A DNA stretch of 64,000 nt from assembly GCA_963931925.1 (NCBI GenBank), contig OZ007571.1, positions 36,002,233 to 36,066,232 of the forward strand, in the 5' to 3' direction. Under the pieces are notes generated by a model. That model saw nothing but the letters and a program-made list of their open reading frames with translations, ran no database searches and had not been told where the DNA came from. Of the stretch, positions 17,601 to 56,800 are shown piece by piece. The position numbers were made by a program, and so were the translations under genes. Numbering within the stretch: the stretch's first letter is position 1; every line of letters begins with the position of its first letter. The stretch is from Onchidella celtica. Its lineage: Eukaryota > Mollusca > Gastropoda > Systellommatophora > Onchidiidae.

Positions 17601-20600
17601 CACTAAGACGTCCTAGAGAGCGGACGCAGGAGAAAGCCCCAGAGGGCGAACATAAGGAGAGCAGTCGGAAGACTTGGGAGTAGTGTTTTTTCCAGTGATG
17701 ACTGGTGCCGGGGACGGGCCGAAGCGCCGCCTACGGTGAGCACAGGGGATAGGCCAGCATAGGGCCGAAGGCCACACATAGGCCAGGAGTGACGCTGTCG
17801 TGTAGGACAGTCGCCGCACATGAGTCGTGGCAGTCTGGCCACCGACAGGGACGTATATATGATCGTGAATGTGTTATTGAAATGCTAATGTGCTATTGCC
17901 ATGTTGATGTGCTATTGAAATGCTAATGTGCTATTGCCATGTTGATGTGCTATTGGAATGCTAATGTGTTATGGCAATAGGAAGGGGCTATTGAGAGACT
18001 GCGGTGCCATTGAAATATTAATGTGCTATTAAGACATGGAGAGGAGAAGCTGAGACCGAAGTGTCTTTAGAAAGTAACTACCGGGTTGTGGACCCGAGGA
18101 AGTGTGCGTACGGGAGAAGGCCGTTGTACGGCAGTTGAATTGAATAATATAATGTCTGTATTTGCGCTATTATCTTTATGTTTATGTATAATAAATGTGT
18201 GAGTCTGATGGGTTGTTCTGTTAAGTGTTAAACTTGTTCGTTCGTGATTGTTGTCTTGTTATAATTATTACATCTCCCAGTCTGGGATTTGTGACACTGG
18301 GGGCTCGTCCGTTGTGACACTGGGGGCTCGTCCATTTTCGTAATATTTAGTTAGTAGGTATTTGTCAGTGGGCATTTGTTACTTTAGTTTTTGTCCACGT
18401 AGTACTTATCTTGTGGTAGGAATTTGTGCTGTCTTTGTTCGTGGGATGAATGGAAATTTCATGATGGTATAATTTATGTATATTTATGAATATGTATTGA
18501 TGCATGTATTTTGATGAATATGTATTAATGTGTACTTAAATTTCTGCAGAGAGTGTGTGTGCCAGCCTGTAGAGGTCAAGCAGCCAGAGCTCTGAGAAAG
18601 GGGAGGAACTTAAGTCTAGGGGAAAGTTAAGTAAAATTCAAAATTTTTGTGCCCTGGATTGTGGGCTGTTCCTTTAATCTGTTTTTTTCTCTGTTTTGCT
18701 GTTTTTGTTGTAATTGATTATACGGGCGGTGGCGCGGGTTTGCTGTGGTGAACTTAGTTTATCCTTTTAAAAAAAAGGTGTGGTAAACTTTGGAACTTCG
18801 TTCATCACAGTGAACAGTTCTATAGGGACCTGTATTTTTGTTTAGATTGTGGCGTTCCATCTTCCTCGTTGTTTTAGGAAGACGTTTCTCTTGTCCCTCT
18901 CTTACCTATCTGTAGATACGTTCTTTTTTTCAGACTCTGTTCTTGTTCGTACCTTGTAGTGTAATCGGCGTAGTTAGGTTGCATTTTTTTTTTCCATTAT
19001 ATTTTCTTTTTTAGGTCTTTGTCCTAGTCTGGTTCGTTGTTCCTCGATGTCCTTGTGGTCCTTCTTCTGAAGTTCTTCATTTTTGTCTTTTCTTTTCTCT
19101 TTTTATTATTAATAGTGCTATACATTTAATGAATATAGAATTAGTTAGGAAGTAGGTTATAAAATGTTCAGTAGGTAAATTTCTGAATTGTATTTGAGAC
19201 AATTGGGTGTTGTCATATCTGGTGTGATCTCAGGTCTCTGGTCGTGTCGTTAGTGACCATACCGACAGGTTGGTCTTTTTCATAATACACACCATAACCA
19301 TAAATCTGTGAAATGGCGGATCTCCGTGAGCTCATGAAGGTAGGTACGGAACTTGGCCTTGAGGGAGAGGAGCTGCGCGGCTGGATTAAAGAGCAGCAGG
19401 CGGAATTGCGCGATGAGTGTACTAAAGATAGAGAGCGAGAAAAAGAGGCTCAGGAGAGGGAATTAAAGTTAAGGGAGATAGAAGCTCAAGAACGGGAGAT
19501 AAAGTTAAAGGAGATAGAGGCGCAAGTAAAGATCGCAGAATTGGAAATCAAAAAGAATGCGCCAACGGAAACAGTTGAGCGGCAGGGGCAAAATAAAGGT
19601 GGCGTTAGGATTAAGCTGCCTACGTTCGACGACCGGAAGGACGACATAGACGCCTTCCTTTACAGGTTCGAACTGAACGCACAACTGCAATGGGGCAAGA
19701 ATAAACAATTATGGTCCACGTACCTGGCTTCCTTGTTGCAGGGGCGAGCGTTAACCTACTTTAAAGAGCTACAGCGCGAAGACGTACATGATTACGATAA
19801 GCTGAAGTCTTTGCTGCTTCGCCGATTTGCGCGTACGGAGGAATATTTCCGGGAGCAGTTTAGGCGAGCACGTGCGGATACCAGGGAGGACTTTGCTGCC
19901 TTCGTCGCGAGACTAGCAGAATATTTCACGAACTGGGTGGACTTGGCGCATGTGGGCGCGGATTTTGCTAAATTGAAAGACCTAATGATCCGTGACCAGC
20001 TGTACGCGTCGTGCCATAAAGATCTGGTGGCTTTCCTGAAAGAAAACGAACCCACGACGGTGCAGGAGGCGTCTAAGTTGGCGGAAGCATACCGTACGGC
20101 ACATCCGTCCAAACCAGTAGCGAGGGCGTACGTGCAGGATGCTGGTTACGTCGCCGTGGTTGAAGGGTCGCCAGCAGGACATAAAGACAGGTCGCGTCAG
20201 CGTGGTGCCTATAACGAGCAAGCCCAGGGGCAAACGTAGGGGGTATCACCAATCACCTGCATATGGATCCGGTAAGTTTGACCGAGCAGGAGGGCTAGGT
20301 CGCGGTAATGGCCGAGGGCGATTTGTGACCTTTGCCGATGACCGACGGCATAGGGACTTTAGTTCCGGGCGCGATGGGTCACGGGGACCCAGGTCTAGCG
20401 GAGCACAGGGAGCGGAGTGTTGGACTTGCGGACGCGTAGGTAATTTTTCACGCGATTGTAGAGCCGCGAAGTGTTGGAACTGCGGAAGAGCAGATCACAT
20501 CAGCGTGAATTGCCCTGCAGGTAGGATAGCGGCGAACGTGGATGGCAATCACGGTAGCTCCAATCCATGTTCCCCTAATAAATTTCATCATGCGGCCGCG

Positions 20601-29600: not shown

Positions 29601-32600
29601 ACACAGCTAGGAGATTACAAGTACATGACTTTAGAAGCATCTGTTGTGGGGCGTGGATCAGGGGGTGGAGTGCAGGCTAGTTAGTCCTTTAGATGGATGT
29701 TTTATACTTATGGCTTTTGCACCCCTTGGCGATTAACACTCAGAACTTGAAATAGGTAATGGACTAAAGCTGTGGGCCTAATATGGTACTCCCTCCAATT
29801 TTTGGGATGGCTTTAATCCCTAACAGACAAATGTTATCAGTTCTTTATTGAAAACCTCTTGTGATATTCATGACTTGTGACCAATTGTCATGCTGTGCAG
29901 ATTTAAACTTGTACTTTTCTTGTTTCATATGAAACTCATAAGCTATTTTGGCTGTTGCAGGTGCTGATACCCAAACCAAGGGGCAGTGATGATGCTGGAG
30001 GTGTGTTAGTGGATGCTGACAATGATGATGATGAGGAGGAGGAGGAACTAGATGCGGAAGAAGCTGGCAGTGATGAGGATGAGTCAAGCCCTGATGATGA
30101 TGGTGATGATGATAATGATGACAATGCTGAAAGTGAAGAAGACATGGAGGATGAAGATGTAAACATTGATGACAACTTTCGTCAGTCAGTGAAAGAAGCT
30201 CTGGGAGAGGCAGCAGATGATGACTCGGGTGAAGATGAGGTAATACGGAGAGAGGTATAATAAAGCAGGAAGAACATTTAATGAGAAAGAAAAGATAGTG
30301 ATTGCATACAGTAATCTTTGGAGAAAATACTCACAGGTTTGAAAGTTACTGGTATGCTATGTTGCATTCCCTAGCCTCAAGACCATCCTAACTGATCCAC
30401 ATGTCTGATCAGTTGACAAACATCAAAAAGAAAGTGTAGAGTGCCAAAGATGTCATGTGCCATTTCCTGCATTTTCTGATATCAGTTTTCCAGAAAAGGT
30501 TCATAAGTTTGATAGCATAGTACTGCAAACTAAAAGTGCCATTTAAAAAAAAAAAATATTATCTGATTAGTGAATATAAAAATTTATCATCTTCTCACTA
30601 TAAAATATTTTTTGTGGATTTTTTTGTTCCTTTCAGACTTTTTATTGCAAATTGAGTTTCATAAATCTGTCTTTAGCTGTTGTATTTGTATGTTCTATTT
30701 TCAGGACTTACCTGACTTGGATGATGAAGAAATGTTTAAGCTAGATGACATGTTAGCTGAGGTATTCAGACAGAGGCGGAAGATAGGAGGCAAGAAGGCC
30801 AGGGAACAAAAGAAGAAAGAGATGGCAAACTTTAGGATTAGGTGAGTTTTTGTGCAATCATCATTTAGTGGATGGAGAAGATGATGTGGATTGAGAGGCA
30901 GATCAGACACATTCGTCTGTGAAATTTTCACGTCATCAGGACAAAATTATCACATATCCCCCTGGCAGGTGAAAGTTTGGTGATAGTAATGCTTAGAATG
31001 GCTTAGATCAGCTGTTGATTGGTAGCACCAGCTTGACTCCAACATCAGTTGATGCACATGGGATAGATTGACAGAAACACTAAGACACAAGGGGTGCCTT
31101 TTGGTTAGGAATTGATTAGACTTGAGGTGATGGCATGAATTCGGGGTCATTTGATGCAGTTGTTCACAAAAAAGGCAAAAAATTTCAGTTTTGGAGCTTT
31201 CCAATTTTGGAATTTCTGTGAAAGGGTTAACACTTACTTCTTTCATCTTTTAATTGCTTCACAATATCATACTTGAATGTAATGAATGAATCATAAATCC
31301 ACTTGTTCTTTCTTTTATTCCAGGGTATTGGATCTTGTAGAAATTTTGGTCAAAAGTGAAAGATGTGGAGATTTTGTGTTGGTAAGTGCAAGTATCAAGT
31401 CCATTCCTCCCCCTCACCACAAACATACACATACACACACCTCCCTATCCATTATTGCTATTCACACGATGTTCAGTGATTTTCAGTTCTCTTCTCATTA
31501 GTCAGACAGGGTTTCTGTACAGCCCTGGAATTCTAATTCACTTGAGAAAAAGCCCTGGGCAAGACCTGAAAATAGTGCATTAGGCCCGAAATTCTCCTCA
31601 GGTTAAAAAAACATTTTTAAACAAATGGTGAAAAAAAATCTGAATAACAACAATAAAAAATTAAATAATAAACAATGTTTTTCTCTTTTCTTGCATGTAG
31701 GCAACCCTAGAATTTAACATTTAAACCAACATTCTCAAAGATGTGCAGGGATCTCGATCAGAGTTGGGAAGGTCCTAAGAACTGTCATCAGCAGAGAAAG
31801 AGATCACAGCAAGAGATGCAGTTCTAGAACTGTAACTGGACCAGAAAGGGATCAGTTTGCAAATGTGGTTTTTAAAAATGTCCTATGATTTTTGCTCTGA
31901 TATCTTTCAAAATTTGTCCTCCACTTTCAGGACATCATTAAACCACTTTTGTTGCTGATGATGAAAACAAACCCATCCGACAGTCAGGCACTGCTGGACA
32001 GGTCAAAGGCCATCTTCAAACAGCTGAAAGCTAGAGTTAAGGTAATCATTTTCTAATCACAGTTATAGAAGCAACAGCTGACACACAATAGATTCTTTTA
32101 TGCTTTGAGTTTAAGTTTGGATTTAAAGGCATGTTGGCACCATATCGGCCATTTTGCACCTTTGACAGTTTTTAGGTACTTTATTTAAGCTTGATACTCA
32201 GAACTTCATTAATTAAAATTTCACAAATGAAATTTAAAAGTTCGTAGAAAATTCTTTTATTTGTAAAGAATGTCATGTTTCTTCGGTGAAAAATTGCGTT
32301 TAATGTCACCAGTGTAATGGTTTAGTAAGTGTTCGTTTTAGATAGTATAGATGCCTTCAATTTCTTTTCATTCTCTGCAGCAAATTTCCAACAGTATCAA
32401 TAGAAATAATTTTGACCACTTACACTTTCTTTCCATGCCTTAGATTTAAATGTTTCTGCAAGTCAGTGAGACTTTATGTTTCTTTACAGCAAGGCCTTTT
32501 GGACGGTGTTCATTCAGCCGAAGACCAACATGAAATGTTTCAGCAACTACTTGAACTGGCTCGAACAGGTGCGTAGCATGGTAGAACAGGAATGATGCTA

Positions 32601-35600: not shown

Positions 35601-38600
35601 AAGCTGATATTGATTTAGCCATTAGTGGTGAACATTTTGCATATAATGTTTTGTAAGCAAGGGAAGGAAGAGAATGGATCTTAGATGTATGATTTGCACT
35701 TTATTCAGGATAACTCCTATTGCTTTTGTTGGCTTGAACAAACTTGTCTGTAGATACTTAACTAACTCTTACTGGCGCAATATAGAATTTTTATCATTAT
35801 TGTAGGAAATTAATTTATTTAAACCAGATTACTTAATTGTATCTTTAGATTCAATGATAGAGAGTGATTATAACCACAAAAGCATTAATTGATCTTTATT
35901 ATTATTATTTTTTTCCGTAGTCAACATTTCAAGTATTGAGTACCATGTTACTGCACGGTCTGAAGGAAGAGTCCACCAAAACACATGGACGAGTAAGTCG
36001 GGATGAAACTGTCATTGTTCAGACGTTGTCTCTCTTACATTTCTATTTGACAATTTCTGCCGTACAATATGGGAATTTATTTATTTATTTATTTTTTTTC
36101 AATATGAATGTGCTAGGTATAGAATTCTGAAGAAGTTGTTCTTTAAACACTTCACCGATTAGAACTATAATTAATAAATGCTTTTGAATTTGACACAAAT
36201 ATCCAACCTTTCCACTGTATACTGTTCAGTTTATGGCCATTCAAACACAGCTGTGAAAGAAACATTTGAATCAAAAGTACATGCTGCCATCAGTATTACA
36301 GAGAATTTTTTATTCAGGATAAAGCATTGTTGTCCCTCAGAATTCACCAGCTTCTAATAGATTTATTTCACTATTTCCATATAATCGTGTAGAAGACACA
36401 TGTAGGACTGTGCCTTGTGGTATTATTCTTGTAGTTGGGAAATCTTTCAAGAATGTTTCACTACAGCAGTTTTCATGATTTTGGGAAATTTTCCACAGAT
36501 GATGTGCTGTTCACTTCTGGCAAGTTTATGCAAGAAAACGGACAATGTGAGTGATTTTTAAATGCTTAGTGAGTGCAAATGCTTGTTGCATGTCTAATTG
36601 TATTATTGTTAGGTCATTTGTACTTGTGTGAATGTTCAAAATGTGATCCTGTTCACATGAGAACCACAATATTAATTAAATGAAGTGAAACTTTGCAAAC
36701 TTTCATAGTGTTTGGGGAAATTAGCAAAGAGAGAGAGGGATGTGTAGAAGCAGTACACTTGGTACATGCATGACAGGGAAGGACCTTCAAGGTTCCCACT
36801 CTTCCGCGGAAATCCACGGTGGAAGAGATCAGCGGTAATTTTTCCGATGTCCATTTTATTACTATTATTTAAGTATTTTGTTGTGAATTTCTATGTGTAG
36901 GTGTAATGTATGGTCCATTATACCAAATTTATGCACAGAATATGGTCAATCATTTAAAATGTACGCTCCGCATAGGCGCCGCGCATAGATTTCAGATGTT
37001 TTTTTCTCAGTTGAGTGGGAGCCCTGGACCTTGACCACAGCTGACAAGGGACAAGGTGGTCTAGAGGCAAGGTGCTCGCCTCTCATGCCAAGGGTCCCGG
37101 GTTCAAAACCCGGCCGGTGCAGGCATGTTGGAAGTTTGGGATTTTTCCCATATTTTCGTGTCCCTGATCCTATTGAGGGGTAGGATCAAGTACCTAGTCT
37201 TCTCGGAAAAGGACGAAAAAATTCGGAGGGCCCGCGTGCACGTTGCGCACGTTAAAGATACCTTGGCAGTTGGAAATCGAAAAGAGCAGGCCGAACAGGC
37301 CGCTGCCCGGGCAAAATTAAATAAAATTCATCTCTACCATTCCCTCATCCCCCCCCCCAAAAAAAACGCCGACCGGCGCTGCACTGTGGCGACGACGTGC
37401 CTGCTCCAGTTGTAACTGGGCTGCAATGGCACAAAGGCAAATTTCCTAAATAGGATTAGAGTTATACAATACAATACAATACAATTATCAATGGTAATGA
37501 AAGTTGTAGCTGTGATTCTTGCACCAGTAGAAGGACTGAGTAATAAGCCAGTGACATTGTCATGTTGTGTGACAAATACTACTATAATGGGATGAAAAAA
37601 AAAATGTCGATGGGATTGAGAGATACACAATTGATATATTAACTGTCCGTCTAACTCCTGTGAATTATTACTACTGTATCGGGTGTATGTGACCTTGTAC
37701 TCTTTGATCTGCAGATGAAGGAGTCGGAGCAGCAGCTGATGAAGACATGGACATCAGAAGCAGCCAGTGTAGTCACTAAGGTGAAATAGCACAAAGTTAA
37801 ACTTTGAAGTGCACGACATTTTGAGAAAATGTCAAGCACTTAGGAAATTTAAATCTGTGAAAAAACAAAACTAATGAAATTAAAAATCTTAAACAAAACT
37901 GGAAGTTTCTTTGGAAAACATAATTTATCAGTTTTAGTGCATTCTAACAAAACTTCTGTATTATATAATTTATTTTTTATTCTCTTTCATATGAAATATA
38001 TGTTAACCTTGAAAAGATTTTGTTTCTGGTATATATTCTAGTTTATCAGATAGGTTTCATTCATACTTTGTCGCACAGTTCAGGAGAAATTCATTTCAAA
38101 TTAAGGGCAAAAGGGCACATTTTTGCCGACTCCATCTTTACCATTCTTTTAATTTGAAAGAGAACATCTCACTCAGAACTGTTCCTGTTATATGATGGAA
38201 ATGGTAAATTGTTCCCACATGTCTGAGATCAAAAGAATTTATATAATATCAGTTGAAAAGCTTCAAATTTCACATTCTGAATATTTCTCTTTAGACTTCA
38301 TGACATCAGCACGTTGAATGAAATGGGATAAGCAGGGGTTCATAAAGGGTGAAAGGGCTTTGAAATTTGTCATCTTTTAGAAATTAAGCACTGTCCAGCA
38401 TGTTCATCACATCATAATTTGATCCAATAAATAAAATAAAATAAGTCAATTTGACAGTTTCAGGTAGACTGATTCATTTTCTAAATTCCTTTCACAGTTG
38501 CTTGTAGGTGGGGAAGGTATCAAAGTGATGCTGTACAAGGACCTGTTATCTCTGGCAGTTGCTTTGCAGACTCGGTCTGATCTGTTTCCTAAGGTAAGTG

Positions 38601-44800: not shown

Positions 44801-47800
44801 ACACCAAGTGCACTAGATCTAGTCCTGTGCTGCCAAAAACGCCCACACAACTCCCAGCATATATATACGACCTGTTTATTTCTTTTTGCAGTGCCAGCGG
44901 TGACAGGTGGGGGGAGGGGAGTGAACAAAGAGGATGACCCTTGACTTCCATATCATGAGCGTGGAGTGCGATGCATAAGCTCACGGCAGTAAAAATACAG
45001 AGTGCTATAGACCGTATGACCCAACCTTCTTTTTTTCTCTCACAAAAACATTTCTGTGCCGTTGATACTAGGCCTTGACCTAGATCTCTCAGTTAACTGT
45101 TGTACTGTGTCTATCAGTATCATCACTTCTACTGAAGATACGGTCAGGTCACGGTTAAAAAGTAAAACACTGCGTATTTGATGTATAGCTATAGTGTTGA
45201 CGGCCACTTATATTCTTTTTATCCGAGCACGTTGAGGCTGTGGAACTCTTTGCCGGAGGACCTAAAATTGTGCAGTAGCCTAGACTCTTTTAAGACAAAA
45301 TTAGAAAAGCACACGTTGAGAGCTAGCTACTGAACAGGCTGCATAGATATACTTATAAACCCAGTGATAAGATTGGTTGATCTGCTCATGGCCACAATCA
45401 AGTGTTTTTATAAGTTTTTATAAATCTAATCGACTCCCGCTTCTTACACCCTTATATGTATATAAATTTTTAACTCCCAGGGACACGGGCCGAGTCGATT
45501 TTTATTGCGCACTGGTGAGATACTCAAATCTGAGAAAACCAGTTTTAAGGAAGAAGAAGAAGAAGAAGAAGTAACTCGCCGATAGCAAACGGTTGCCATG
45601 CAACTGCTTCACACAATGATACTGGAGGAACTGGTGAATGTATGCCAATAATTAGAGGAACAAGGGACATAATTGCGTTACTTATTGGATACGTTTCCCA
45701 TAAGGGTGATGTTTGATCTCCCGTGCTTATGTTTTTTGTTCTCTTCCATCACTAATCTGGTCGACCGCGATTCAGCCGGTCCCACTGGTGTCAAGATATT
45801 AGGATTGCACTGTGTAAATTTCTTTCTCTGTCTCTGTAATTTCTTTCTCAACATCTAACTCTCCATGAGTCGTGCCCTTGCCGCTCATTTCCCTTTTTTC
45901 TCTTTCTTTCCGTTGTTTGTTTACAAGACGTGCTGCACTGCGTTTGCGCGTCAACGCCTTGCGCACCCCCTTGACCATTATCTTATAATTTTGAACATTC
46001 TCCCCACCTGGACTCATAACCAATTTAGGATGTCCACTCAAATACTCAATCCGTTCATCTCATCATATCATCAAAACAAAATATTCAAAGAAACAAAACA
46101 TTAGTCACTTCCTGGACCAAATTGCAACAAACATAATTAATAACCAATTCCCAGTATTTTCACCTAGATGTTAAATGTACACAGTTACTTTCACCACCCT
46201 TCTTTGTAGGGATTTGTAATTCAGATGATACCTGAAATTGAAAATCACAAGTCTAGTTTCTCAGGGGGCTTTGCCTTTCTACCTGCTCTAGTGTAAACTG
46301 AGCCTGGTTGGTTATCAGAAGATGTACCTCTAGGCCAAGCACTATCTCTTGAATAAGTGGCTTCGGGGCTAGATATAGGCCCATCTGCTTGCCTCTCTGT
46401 ATCAAACAGCTCTAACTTGTGGAGCTTTTGTAAAGCTCTTGTCACTTTACCCCTGGTTGTTTTCAGTTCTACTGCTCTGATCAGCCTATCTTTTCCCACA
46501 AATGTCTTAGTTACAACACCAAGTGCCCACTGCAGTCTAGGCTTCCCTTCTTCTCTTATCAAGACTAAAGAGCCAATTTTCACATCATTGTTTGGCTTCT
46601 TCTGTGCCATAGGTGGTAAGTTTCTAATGTAACTGTCCTGCCAAATGTTCCAAAACTGATTGACCGCCTGTGACTGACATCTTTCTCTCAATGCAAGATC
46701 ACTCACCTCTTCACAATATTCATCCACCATGACAAAACTCAATGCTGAGCTTCTTCCTATCAAAAAGTGGGAGGGGGTGAGGGGGTTCCCAGTATCCCCA
46801 ATGTAGGTGAGTGGTCTAGAATTGATACAGGCCTCTATCTCTTGTAAGACAGTTTCCAACTTAACCCTTGATACCTGAGTTTTTCCCAGACTCTTCCTCA
46901 AAGCCGATTTTACTGACCTTTCCCACCACCCTCCCCACCATGGAGCCAAGGGGGCACTGAATTTCCACTCTATACCCACATACTCTAACTCCCTTTGCAG
47001 TAAGCCATGAGCTGCTCTAAATGTTTTTGCATTGTCAGAGTAGATTATTGAGGGTTGGCCTCTCCGCGCAGCAAATCTCCTAAAAGCTAGTATGAAATCT
47101 TCAAGGGATATAGAATCAACCAACTCAACGTGAACCGCTCTTATCACTGCACATGTGAAAAGTACGATGTACAGCTTTTTGTCAGGATTGTCAGAACAAT
47201 AGAGAGGGCCAGCATGATCGATGCCCACAACCGAAAACGGAGGTGCTTTCTTGACTCTGTCCACCGGAAGAGGTGCAATGGCTTGTTCGCATGGTCTTGC
47301 ATCTTGTCTTTGACAATCAAAACACAATTTGCATATTTTCTTAGCCAATGTTCTCACCGATAATATCCAAAATGAATTTCTGAGTGATGTGATCAAAGTA
47401 TTCACTCCGGCATGTTTCATCAAGACATGTCTGTTCTTCACTATGAGATAGGAAACATGGCACTTGGGTAGGAGTATTGGGTGTTTCTCATCATACAAAA
47501 GTGTAGGAGCTAATGTAAGCCTGCCTTGTATCCTCAACAGTCCATCCTTGTCAATAAATGGGGAAAGCTTGTAGACGTGAGATGTTTTCTTCACAGCCAT
47601 TTCGCGGTCGAGGGTTGTCAGTTCTTCGCCAAAATGTTGCTTTTGAACACAGCGCAATAAAGTGGTCTTTCCTGTTTCTAATTCTTCTGGGGTAAATTTA
47701 TTGGACTTGTTTCTTGTTTGCCCTGCACGTCTGTTGCGTATAAATCTTAAAATCCATGTCATCACTCGAACAAGCTTTCCAATGTCAGAGAAGCGATCAT

Positions 47801-50800: not shown

Positions 50801-53800
50801 CCACAGGTTGGGTGGTGACGAGCTGTCTTTCGCAGAAGATGAAAGATTTGTCTGTAACAGTTTCTGAATGTGCGAAAAAATGATTCTCTCTGGTCTGCCA
50901 AACCTCTTCAGAAGAATCTCTTTGGCTGCTGCGTAGTTCTCTGCGGTCAGTGGTAAGCCAGAAACAGCAGCGGCTGCCTCGCCCTGAAGAAGGGACTGTA
51001 AGTACGTAAATTTGTTAACAACTGGGACGTCGGTTTCATCAATCACAGCCCGAAATTTGTCCAAAAATGTCTGCCATTCGGTGTAGTCACCCCCAAATCT
51101 TGGTAGCTCTAGCTTTGGAAGCCTTGCTGTGGGACGACGAGGGTTGTTGGCAGCTGCAGAATCCCTCAAGGCGCCAGCTTCTGAAGCGGCCTCTGTGTTC
51201 TGATTTTCCCTTGTCATAATTTTCAATCTTTCTTTAGCCTCTACTAAAACTTTTCTCTTCTCATCTCTGAATTCTGCAGCAACATCAATATCTTCCTCTA
51301 ACCTGACTAATTCTATTTTACTCTCAACTAAGGCCTGAGCCTCATCTAGATTTTGCATTCTTTTATCAAAATCTTCTATTTGTTCTAACAGTTCTGTTTG
51401 TGATGTTTCTTTTTGCAACGTCTGCTGCAGTCTATTGGTTACTCTTGTGAGCCAACATTTGGCCGCGCTTCTCTTTCTGCCGGCCCCTTCCATATTGTAT
51501 GGTGGCCACTCTAGCTAGTTCTCTAGATCTATCACTGGGTGACGTCTCACAACTGTCAACCCTCCACAACTCTTGACAACTTCTATAATATCTAAAGTCG
51601 CTGTCCCGGGTTTCGGCACCATGTAAATTTCTTTCTCTGTCTCTGTAATTTCTTTCTCAACATCTAACTCTCCATGAGTCGTGCCCTTGCCGCTCATTTC
51701 CCTTTTTTCTCTTTCTTTCCGTTGTTTGTTTACAAGACGTGCTGCACTGCGTTTGCGCGTCAACGCCTTGCGCACCCCCTTGACCATTATCTTATAATTT
51801 TAAACACACTGTATCATTCTGTGGCCAAAAAGGTGCCACACTAAACCACAGCTGGATATCGATGCTGTGTCTGCCTATCACATGCTGGTGAAGGTTTGTG
51901 TTTATGCTTATATGTAATGATGAACAGTCAGCACCAATATAGTTTAAATATTACTAAGGCAGTCTGCCCATGTAAATGTTGAATGCTGTTGACAGAATAC
52001 TCACTGTTTGTCCCAAGGCTTCTCAGCAGGTAGACAGAGGTGACAGTCGGGAACCACTAAGAAACGACAAAAATCACGATGTCATTAGGCATGTACTTAA
52101 ATTTGATTCCTTTCATTTGGCACAGTCACCCCAGATCTGTCAAATCATATGGCATATCCACATTTCATCCATCCTGCCCAAGGCTAATATAATTGAGAAG
52201 TGCATCATACAAACATGCTGGTCAACCAAGTGCAATAACAAAGCAACTCCTTCTTCCCCACTAGAAGGTGCAAAGTGGCCGTTGTCGTGCTGACGCGCTG
52301 TTAAACCCAAACTCAAACTTCCCCACTAAAGCAATGAACAAATTATGCAAAAAGCAGACATAAAATAATGTTGGTGACTGTAGATTGAGCGGCCTTTCTG
52401 AAAAAAAGTAGGAAAACCCCAAACAGAAACTATCTGTACAGATAATTTATGTGTAACATGTTAGCTGTGAACCAGACCAAGATACACAACAACATTCACT
52501 CTAAAAACCAAAAGATCAGAAAATCAACAGAGCGCGGCAAACATACATCCGTGGCTGATAAATGTAAGAGGTTCGTACACAGGTTTGTAAGAAAATACAT
52601 GTATAACACACGGCTGTTTAAATTGCTTGGAAAGCGGTATTCTAGTTGCCGATCGGAATCCCCCGCCGACCTCCCGCGATGCGGTCATAAATCACCTGTC
52701 AGCCGTGTGCACATCCGTGAAGGCATGCCATCCCTGGTCAAGCCTGTGTAATACGATTCCACCAATTTTCGCATACCTTTGCAGCGCGATATCTTCCGAT
52801 CTAATAATGCTACAGCACCATGCGAGATCTCATTTTAAACGTCAGGATTGTACCAACAGGACGATATAACTTTTGCTGCTTACTTTTCAAGATTGTTGAT
52901 TTTATCGGCTATTTCCAGTGTGTGTTTTTTAGATTTTGGAATTTGATTTTCAACACTAGTTCTCTTTAATCGTCAATATTTTGCACGGGCCGCCTTTGAT
53001 TTCCATATAAAATCAATATTTCGAAAGTGTAAAGGCTAACCTCTAACCCGTGCAAGTTTGGTGTATGTATAGGTTCTGTGTGATTTGTTTACGATTTTTG
53101 AAAAAGTTGTGCGACTCAATCGAGGTGCTTCTGTGCCATTCTTTGTTTGTTTGCCGCCTGTTATTAGCAGCTTGTGTGAAAAATATTGCAAAATGGAGCA
53201 CCATGAAGAACATATCCACGTTGAGCGCCTCCACGAACTGTGTCGAACATGTGGTGGGAGGACACTTACCAAACAGCAAAAACGGCAAAGGCGGAAAGCA
53301 AAGAAATGCAAGGACTTTGAGAATGACATTTTGCTTGCTTTTGGTGTATCCATCACCGGCGACTTGAATCATATTCACTCCTCAACTATTTGTTATTCGT
53401 GTGTGGCCGTGATAGGAAACATCAAACGCCATGCCTTCAAAGGTAGTATTGTTAACGCCAGGAAGTTGGCCCAAGGAAGTTCACATTTATGGACTGAATT
53501 TCAGCCACACACGAGGGCCGCAGATTGTGTATTATGTGCACAGTATTTAAAGACTAGTTTGGGGAGTAGACATGTTTCAAATGACTCCACACCACATCAA
53601 GACAGAGACCAAACAATAATTTCCACAGCAGCAGCAGCATGTTCAACTACGACATTAGAGGATATAATCCCTTCGCCGATAACACAAAATTCAACATTTG
53701 AGGAGACAGCACCAACACAAACGATTGCATGTACAATACAAGACGCAATCCATCGTGACATAACGGAAGCCACATCAGCTACATTACATGACACATCCAA

Positions 53801-56800
53801 CCTATCAATGACCTGTAGTACAACATGCGAGGACACAACGCTAACAGAAAACACACCGTCATCTAGCAGTGGCCTTAATGAGGCAGAGTTGAGCGGCCCC
53901 CCATTGCTACATCAACGCCACACAAACCTACAAAGGTTATGGTAGACAGCAACACCTCACCGGCATTTAAACACGACAAGTTATTTTCCCAGTCATTCGA
54001 ATTGTCCCCAACACGGCCACTTACACAAGAAGAACATAAACTTCACACACATTTTGTTAGGAGACGATTGAATAATTCAGAAACAAACATTTTCAAATGC
54101 AAGACAGGAGGCCAACCTATACTATTAGCCAAACTAACAAAAACAAATAAAGAAACATCTCTAGCCAAAGAAACCACCAAAAGAAAACGCACACATTTGC
54201 TTTCTACCATTAGGACTAGCATAGCGGGCTCATCACAAGACAGTATTACCACACAACATGCATCAGAACTTAGACAGGTCAAAACAGCGACACGAAAGAA
54301 TATTTGTGAGGAGGCAGGCATTAAATTAAAACCACAAATGAGCAGCCAGTCTGTGATGGCAATGAAGGAAGCTACAGATCTAACATGGAGCCAGTTACGT
54401 TAACAAAGACGGTATCTTAAAGAAGCTGGCCTCATGTTGCCAAATGAGCAAGAACAACGGAAAGCCATGGAAGATCTGGCAGCTGACATTGTCACAGAGA
54501 TGGAGGATTTTATTGACGCCGATGGACAGACACACCGCGCAGCATTCGGGAAGGTTTCAAATCTATCAGATTTTGTAGTCAACATCTTAGACAAACAGAA
54601 ACAAAATGAGACACTCACGTGGCACGACTCCACCATTCCACAGGATGAAATTTGGGTTAAGTTTGGGGGGGACCACGGCAAAGATAGTTTAAAATTTACT
54701 CTTCAAATAGCTAACACACAAAAAGCCAATTCAAAACACAACACATTTCTAGTTGCAATGGCAAAAATCAAAGACAGCTATGAAAACCTTGAAACATGTA
54801 TGTCTGTTTTACAACCTCAACTTGCAGAGCTTTCAGCACTAGTATGGCAGGGCAAGAAAATAGTTTTATTCCTTTTTGGGGATTATGACTTTCTTGCTAA
54901 AATATATGGACTCTCTGGTGCACAAGGCACATACCCATGTCTGTGGTGCCTGGCGCCAAAGTCCCACATGATGAAATTACAAACACATGACTCTCCAGCC
55001 CGCTCTTTGGCCACCATCAAACATGACTACAAACGTTTCAAAGAGGTCGGCTTAGGGCTGAAGAAACGTGCGCCGTTTTCACAATAGTCTCCACCTCCCA
55101 ATGCTAGATGTAGATCCAAGCCATGCTGCTCCGCCATATCTTCATATTTTGTTAGGTATTGTGCTGAAACACCATCGCCTGCTTGAAGAGGCTGCACATG
55201 AAATCGATGTGCAGTTGGGCTTACAAGCAGAAGATGAATGCAAAGGTGTGTCTGCGTCAGTAAAATCCTATGGAAGCAACTGGCCAAAGGCTGAGGGACT
55301 CGAAGAAAGAATTCGGTTCCTGCAAGGTTGTGTGACTCTGACTAATGATGAAGAAGAGAGAAGCCGTTTTCAGGAGAAGCTCTCAGATGCAGAAGAAGAG
55401 TTACTCAACCTTGATTTCGAGCCCCTCAGCCCTAGGTCAGGGCCCATCTGCTCACAACTAGACAACATTCTTGACAAACACAACATTACACCCCAGTCAT
55501 ACCATAGCCGTTCATTCATCGGAAACCACTGCCACAAATACATCACTGCCAAAGTTTTTAAGACATTACTTTGTTCATTATCAAGAAAACACAGGAAAAC
55601 ACACACAACCAGAGCATACTGACCATGGCTTTCGTGTTGCGGGACAAATTTAATGAAATAAATGAAGCATACGCCAAAGTTCACACATTAATATCACATG
55701 GAAAACCTGTGCCACCTAACAACATTCCACACATTCAAACTTGGATTACTAGGTACATGGAATTATTCAGATGTTCTTTCCCCAATAAAATCATACCTAA
55801 GCAACATATTCTAGAGAAGCACTGCCTTCCCTGGATACAGAAATACGGGTTTGGTATGGCACTGCATGGTGAGCAAGGGGGCGAGCTCATTCACGCTTCT
55901 GTGGCCAAGTTAGAAAGACGGGCAGCAGCCATCAAAAACATGCAGCACCAACTTCAACTAGTCATGCAGTCACAACATCTACAAACCTCCCCAGAACTCC
56001 AAGCATGTGCTCCACCAGTGAAACGAAGGAAGACAAAATCTTAATCTGTGACATTATTTATAATTTTATAGACCCATTCATTGTTTTTGATTATTTGTGA
56101 ATTTGTGATAACATATGACTGGTTAAGTGCAGGCGTGACATGACACTGACAGTGAGGCCAACGGAAAACGATCGTCAAACTCGAATAACTCGACACTGGA
56201 TATCTATACATGAATGCAGTCATGTGAGTTTTGAAAGTTAACCTATTTCTCATGCTGTGTGATGATTTCACCTCATTCGATGGGGCCAATCATATCTAAT
56301 TTCATATCTGAAATTTATGAACAATGTACTCATTTGAGGAAATATTGTATCATTTTGTGCCTCTATATCTCTACTACGATGTTGAATACATTTCTATGGT
56401 TCACTGTATACATTTACAATATATCGCTAAGTTATTATGTGTTTACAAAAGTATGACATATGGGCTGATTTGGGTGTGAGACTGCTTTGATTACCGATAA
56501 AAAACAGCGAGTCAGAAGCGCTAAACGGGCTCCGGGAAACCCCCCCTAGAATCGAGGTCGCTGACCCAGTTAACGAGGTCGCGACCGGGTCAGGTCACCA
56601 ATAGCGGGGAGGCCGCTCGACTGGGCTCGGCAACTAGAATACCGCCTCTTAACAGCCGTGAACAGCGAATTGCCATTAACTCACTATTGCCAACACTGCA
56701 TCAATATTTGTATTTGTATTTGTATTTGTATAACTCTTTAATCCCATTTGGGAAATTTTGCCTTTGTGCCATTGCAGCCCAGTTATAACTGGAGCAGGCA

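Follow-up and report, generated by a model that had tools for sequence, protein, structure and literature searches.

The 64,000-nucleotide stretch of the Onchidella celtica genome analyzed here (contig OZ007571.1, positions 36,002,233 to 36,066,232; hereafter the window, numbered from its first letter) contains a transposon that occupies exactly 52609−56660. Its inverted ends are made up of 10 + 19 identical bases and are bordered by AACA on either side. On the left, a 10-bp terminal block, CACGGCTGTT (52609−52618, plus strand), is followed by a 15-bp spacer (52619−52633) and a 19-bp inner block, GCGGTATTCTAGTTGCCGA (52634−52652, plus strand). The right end mirrors this arrangement, with a minus-strand copy of GCGGTATTCTAGTTGCCGA at 56627−56645 (19/19 identical to the left), a spacer of 5 bp (56646−56650), and a minus-strand copy of CACGGCTGTT at 56651−56660 (10/10 identical). 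The target-site duplication, as read from the sequence, is AACA at 52605−52608 and 56661−56664. A sequence-only reading of the locus had proposed a bounded transposon with these two ends and a target duplication, and the boundaries proved to be exact. As a whole, the element is almost certainly a decayed, once autonomous, RING-less cut-and-paste Chapaev DNA transposon of the CACTA-Mirage-Chapaev-Transib group, inserted antisense into an intron of a MUTYH-like gene.

The end blocks are specific to the element. With up to three mismatches allowed, GCGGTATTCTAGTTGCCGA occurs at two sites only in the 64 kb, against a shuffled expectation of 0.00. For CACGGCTGTT, the two ends are the sole exact matches in the window, and allowing one mismatch adds three further sites (five in total vs 2.28 expected). 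As a control for the duplication, 4-mers sampled from the two flanks agree by chance with a frequency of about 0.005. The duplication is limited to four matching base pairs (TAACA on the left, AACAG on the right) and does not extend to the 5 bp of Transib. No hairpin beyond chance was found in 56490−56660 (z −0.08), and Rfam at the gathering threshold gave no match in 36500−57500. An inverted copy of CACGGCTG, the first 8 bp of the terminus, lies on the minus strand at 52700−52707, about 90 bp inside the left end, and may be there by chance.

Between the ends, the plus strand carries the pieces of a transposase, for which five open stretches (53193−53942, 53882−54400, 54404−55084, 55062−55619, and 55562−56041) were searched against Pfam at E≤10. 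The first transposase frame (53193−53945) holds the Chapa zinc domain, which resembles the RAG1 N-terminus, at about 53229−53564. It is followed by a linker (53565−53900) that is open yet poorly conserved, so that an intron may exist in that stretch, and homology leaves this frame near 53900. The domain comprises three zinc blocks in one reading frame: ELCRTCGG (53235−53258), HSSTICYSC (53376−53402), and CVLC (53526−53537). In alignment A4, the first cysteine of block 1 and both cysteines of blocks 2 and 3 are invariant, and the second cysteine of block 1 is nearly so. The three cysteine blocks and their RAG1 N-terminal homology had been pointed out in the sequence-only reading. The profile search it proposed came out significant, with 53193−53942 matching RAG1_imp_bd (PF12560) at E 1.7e-7 and 31.6 bits, above the cut-off of 23.3. 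In the same stretch, no RING match was found at E≤10.

The second transposase frame (53882−54403) includes a GGQP motif (54107−54118) and ends at an in-frame stop (54401−54403); its open part, 53882−54400, has no significant Pfam match alone. Past the stop, the same frame continues (54404−55087) with a DUF1280, RNase-H-like core, and here 54404−55084 matches DUF1280 (PF06918) at E 1.3e-15 and 58.1 bits, against a cut-off of 25. This piece carries the first catalytic Asp, in the stretch beginning FGGDHG (54662−54688), the second Asp in LFGDYDF (54872−54892), and the C(2)C motif PCLWC (54935−54949). The third frame (55062−55622) contains the LH motif (55140−55145) within PYLHILLG (55134−55157), in a column that is invariant in alignment A1, as well as a 14-residue stretch at 55500−55541. 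The fourth (55562−56044) contains the H(4)H motif HILEKH (55805−55822) and the catalytic Glu region LHGEQGGE (55862−55885). Searches of the window by tBLASTn bridge these pieces. The relative P0014 aligns to 53229−53564 and then to 53948−56002 in three overlapping pieces, and P0001 aligns to 53900−56038 in three pieces at 55−63% identity, with a fourth piece at 53436−53906 (25%). These matches show that the pieces belong to a single transposase, the product that an intact ancestor would have made.

The coding sequence is broken by the in-frame stop at 54401−54403 and by frame changes near 53900, 55062, and 55560−55590. The three catalytic positions (Asp, Asp, Glu) can still be read despite the interrupted frames, as can the motifs C(2)C, LH, and H(4)H. 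With one stop and three frame changes, the window copy is predicted to be inactive as read. An intact and possibly active Chapaev, whose stop and frame changes would be sequencing or assembly errors, would suit the end blocks, which are identical at 29 of 29 bases, and the perfect duplication, both of which fit a fairly young insertion. The four separate breaks within about 2.8 kb speak against it, and we consider it improbable. The readable catalytic motifs and the location within a host gene could likewise suggest that a Chapaev transposase has been domesticated as a host gene. The presence of both inverted ends and of the duplication, together with the broken reading frame, speaks against this origin, which has a negligible probability.

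The assignment to Chapaev follows from the combination of ends, duplication, and protein motifs. In the available text of PMC4079192, the hallmarks of Chapaev are given as a duplication of 3−4 bp, CAC...GTG termini, DDE, and the C(2)C, LH, and H(4)H motifs. All of these are found in the window element, with CAC...GTG ends (CACGGCTGTT, inverted), the 4-bp AACA duplication, the DDE residues, and the three motifs. The Chapa zinc domain is also present, as judged by the PF12560 match and by its alignment with Chapaev relatives. DUF1280, according to the accessible part of PMC3985635, represents the transposases of Chapaev transposons and falls in one clade with RAG1. The window copy differs in its broken coding frame and in having no RING finger, which is a feature of two Chapaev subgroups and not obligatory for all. 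It is a known kind of element, and its RAG1-like zinc region is one already described in Chapaev: as far as the text of PMC4411706 is available, that study named it the Chapa domain, noted that a RING finger was added in two subgroups, and reported the pairing of zinc domain and core.

Such elements are not rare. Of 7992 candidates that were scored, at least 107 proved to be relatives at E≤0.001. Among the 107 matches listed, precomputed annotation assigns PF06918 to 105, PF12560 to three, and a RING domain to four. The [LIV]CRx[CG] motif is present within the first 160 residues in 43 of 108 relative proteins. Named sources of relatives are Elysia, Plakobranchus, Littorina, and Nucella, which we take to be molluscs, together with Lineus, presumably a nemertean, and Sycon, presumably a sponge. 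In a FastTree phylogeny of 106 sequences and 380 columns, which left out proteins shorter than 520 amino acids as well as P0028 and P0052, the window element pairs with P0001 (support 0.981).

The sequence-only reading had labeled the element as N-RAG-TP-like. N-RAG-TP, in the accessible text of PMC8355894, is an Aplysia element made entirely of RAG1 N-terminal-like sequence. Both the Aplysia californica element and the one in the window are invertebrate transposons with a zinc region like that of the RAG1 N-terminus. Furthermore, a search with the 250-amino-acid zinc frame returned one protein, an N-terminal-only gene model from the mollusc Plakobranchus (P0108, 190 amino acids, 43% identity, E 5.2e-35). 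N-RAG-TP is described as the zinc region only (PMC8355894, available text), and it is by this description that the window element is set apart, since it adds a catalytic core. Here the two ends also enclose, after the zinc region, a Chapaev DDE core in broken frames that has DUF1280 and the motifs C(2)C, LH, and H(4)H. A transposon consisting of RAG1 N-terminal-like sequence alone is thus very unlikely, and we replace the N-RAG-TP label with Chapaev because DUF1280, which PMC3985635 equates with that family, is encoded by the core of this very element.

A RAG-like transposon (ProtoRAG/RAGL) with RAG1L and RAG2L genes would account for the zinc N-terminus and for the RAG1-like core fold that structural comparison recovers in a relative. 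It would, however, call for a 5-bp duplication, as in Transib and RAG, where 4 bp are found, and for a RAG2L gene, which RAGL elements also encode. In the scan, which covered the five transposase pieces, no kelch match was obtained. The sequence outside the transposase comprises 584 bp on the left and 616 bp on the right with no open frame above 86 amino acids, and the core falls in DUF1280. We give this origin practically no weight. Transib itself differs in its 5-bp duplications and in having no N-terminal region.

Several observations weigh against the Chapaev assignment. The AACA duplication is read from a single copy, and when four relatives were searched against the window by tBLASTn, this element alone was returned, with no second copy or empty site. 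Neither 55062−55619 nor 55562−56041 has a significant Pfam match by itself; their placement comes from tBLASTn. Direct sequence comparison of the core (54404−55084 and 55062−55619) with solved chains of RAG1 and Transib gave no match, so that what links it to RAG1 is DUF1280 and a relative's structure, not the structure of the window copy. GCGGTATTCTAGTTGCCGA had no exact match in the virus collection viral_contigs, and profile searches raised 64 candidate stretches in viral_contigs and nine in genome_contigs, with no relative confirmed; these collections hold viruses, bacteria, and archaea and are therefore uninformative on copy number in the host.

The window copy displays the ends, the duplication, and the motifs, and its homology with complete relatives extends from the zinc domain as far as the C-terminus. 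Family knowledge suggests how a Chapaev element of this type would move. The N-terminal Chapa domain would dimerize the transposase and may help to bind DNA, with the linker joining it to the core. The RAG1-like DDE core would bind the CAC-ended inverted repeats and excise the element, which would then be joined to its target with a 4-bp stagger, giving rise to the AACA duplications.

The homology of the Chapa domain to the RAG1 N-terminus is most evident in profiles. When the window product is compared directly with solved RAG1 by phmmer, the match is weak (E 0.0011 for the whole sequence, 0.083 for the best stretch by itself), and a profile of 22 N-terminal segments reaches RAG1 at 1e-10. 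Taken individually, 20 of the 22 have a PF12560 match at E≤0.1. Among full-length relatives, several of which are without the N-terminus, RAG1_imp_bd matches 12 of 55 and zf-AD 13 of 55 at E≤1. Vertebrate RAG1 differs from the window element in that the cores are too diverged for direct sequence detection, no RING match was found here, and the window element is a transposon with its own ends. Overall, the observation made in the sequence-only reading is confirmed and its interpretation partly supported: the RAG1 N-terminal homology is real, and the element that carries it is a decayed Chapaev.

The same domain also resembles the zinc-finger associated domain (ZAD) of insect zinc-finger proteins, which suggests relatedness, with no claim of membership. 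More specifically, the resemblance covers the first ~75 residues of the Chapa domain, and 15 of the 22 segments match zf-AD (PF07776) at E≤0.1, against 0 of 22 decoys. The segments were picked from proteins with the [LIV]CRx[CG] motif, a choice that favors both families. The decoys, in which only C, H, and W stay at their positions, control for cysteine spacing and not for that choice. The segment of P0068 passes both curated cut-offs (zf-AD 29.4 vs 28, RAG1_imp_bd 32.7 vs 23.3) and is the only one of the 15 to pass that of zf-AD; the one-by-one rescan covered the segments other than the sponge-like P0101 and P0105. A second structural look listed three entries, all of them ZADs (M1BP, Pita, and Grauzone). 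The zf-AD match of RAG1 itself is weak (E 0.0045, 17.6 bits), as is the comparison of alignment A4 with one M1BP ZAD segment (probability 72), for which a search for relatives returned two short proteins.

Against a ZAD relationship stand the score of the window domain with PF07776 (18.1 bits, below the cut-off of 28), the lack of any zf-AD match at E≤10 for the whole 250-amino-acid frame, and the lack of a Foldseek match at E≤0.001. In the literature searched, where most subscription papers are absent, nothing joins ZAD or the zinc-finger associated domain with RAG1, or zf-AD with Chapaev. P0068, one of the listed relatives, has a RING domain and DUF1280 in addition and forms a bridge between ZAD, Chapaev, and RAG1.

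A further possible parallel to RAG1 concerns the second transposase frame and the ends. The GGQP motif opens a stretch whose counterpart in P0005, one of the relatives, shows a loose alignment with the RAG1 nonamer-binding domain; the glycine-proline motif was seen by eye, and its G is invariant in alignments A3 and A6. Of 30 RAG1 alignment rows for the P0005 model, 14 start at residue 316−331, with a root-mean-square deviation of 4.3−7.3, and the other 16 start at residue 380 or later (3.0−4.9), which makes the placement on the nonamer-binding domain loose. A profile of 22 segments of this stretch found no RAG1 chain at E≤10, and its four matches are unrelated proteins. The structural alignment and the motif thus hint faintly at a nonamer-binding-like stretch, with the sequence profile against it. 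In the same literature, no paper pairing Chapaev with a nonamer was found.

In this one copy, the spacers between the conserved end blocks differ by about one helical turn (15 bp on the left vs 5 bp on the right). RAG signals have spacers of 12 and 23 bp, and ProtoRAG ends 27 and 31 bp, in the available text of PMC8289069. Unequal spacers in a single copy may be a simple indel. That Chapaev of this type, although outside the RAG lineage, keeps the whole RAG1 plan, with a ZAD-like zinc domain for dimerization, a helical nonamer-binding-like stretch that begins at the conserved glycine-proline motif, and a DDE core, together with unequal bipartite ends, is a speculative proposal that we hold to be rather unlikely.

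The host gene lies on the minus strand, and insertion within a DNA-repair gene, as stated in the sequence-only reading, is borne out by its exon-like frames. Pfam matches to HhH-GPD (63767−63949, below cut-off), HHH (60322−60705), the EndIII 4Fe-2S motif (58500−58700), and NUDIX_4 (43159−43422, below cut-off) follow one another in the direction of the gene. This is the order that we would expect of the adenine glycosylase MUTYH, and the gene is named MUTYH-like because of it. The element sits antisense between the third and fourth of these frames, with the EndIII 4Fe-2S and NUDIX_4 frames being the nearest recognized exons before and after the insertion.

Among the other features of the window, a BEL/Pao retroelement adjoins the transposon at 46248−51514 (minus strand; matches to DUF1759, Pao peptidase, RVT_1, and DUF5641), and a direct repeat of 191 nt at 98% identity (45807−45997 and 51616−51806) may represent its long terminal repeats. 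Just outside the Chapaev element begins one copy (56754−57173) of an inverted repeat whose other copy lies at 37048−37444 (304 nt at 95%, 86 nt at 98%); it includes a tRNA-Glu-like stretch (57100−57170, minus strand) and is possibly a tRNA-derived short interspersed element. A dispersed repeat is present in two inverted copies (9605−10422 and 61743−62553), 88−95% complementary in four blocks. At 20121−23933 (plus strand), a frame of 1271 amino acids encodes CCHC, integrase (H2C2, rve), SH3-like, reverse transcriptase, and RNase H domains, with the integrase preceding the reverse transcriptase, unlike in ordinary Gypsy elements; we take this order to resemble the Gmr1 type. The frame is flanked by direct repeats (17446−18072 and 25543−26167) about 8.1 kb apart, perhaps long terminal repeats, whose first parts are 98−99% identical and each of which has a terminal 19-bp tandem array. 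Finally, an exon-like frame at 30567−30842 (plus strand) matches DNA_pol_phi (PF04931, E 7.2e-9), pointing to a MYBBP1A-like gene on the plus strand.

Finding the zinc region and a RAG1-like core in one element weakens one apparent support for the assembly of RAG1 from two transposons; in the accessible text of PMC4411706, the joint presence of the RAG1 N-terminal zinc region and core in Chapaev was already argued in 2015. If the ZAD relationship holds, the RAG1 N-terminus gains a testable role as a dimerization module. If Chapaev of this type did keep the whole RAG1 plan with unequal ends, the asymmetry of two-block signals on which the 12/23 rule is based would predate RAG, and the RAG1 N-terminus and the insect ZAD would share ancestry. 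Unequal Chapaev ends would then date 12/23-type asymmetry to before the RAG-like transposons, for which such asymmetry was proposed in the available part of PMC8289069.

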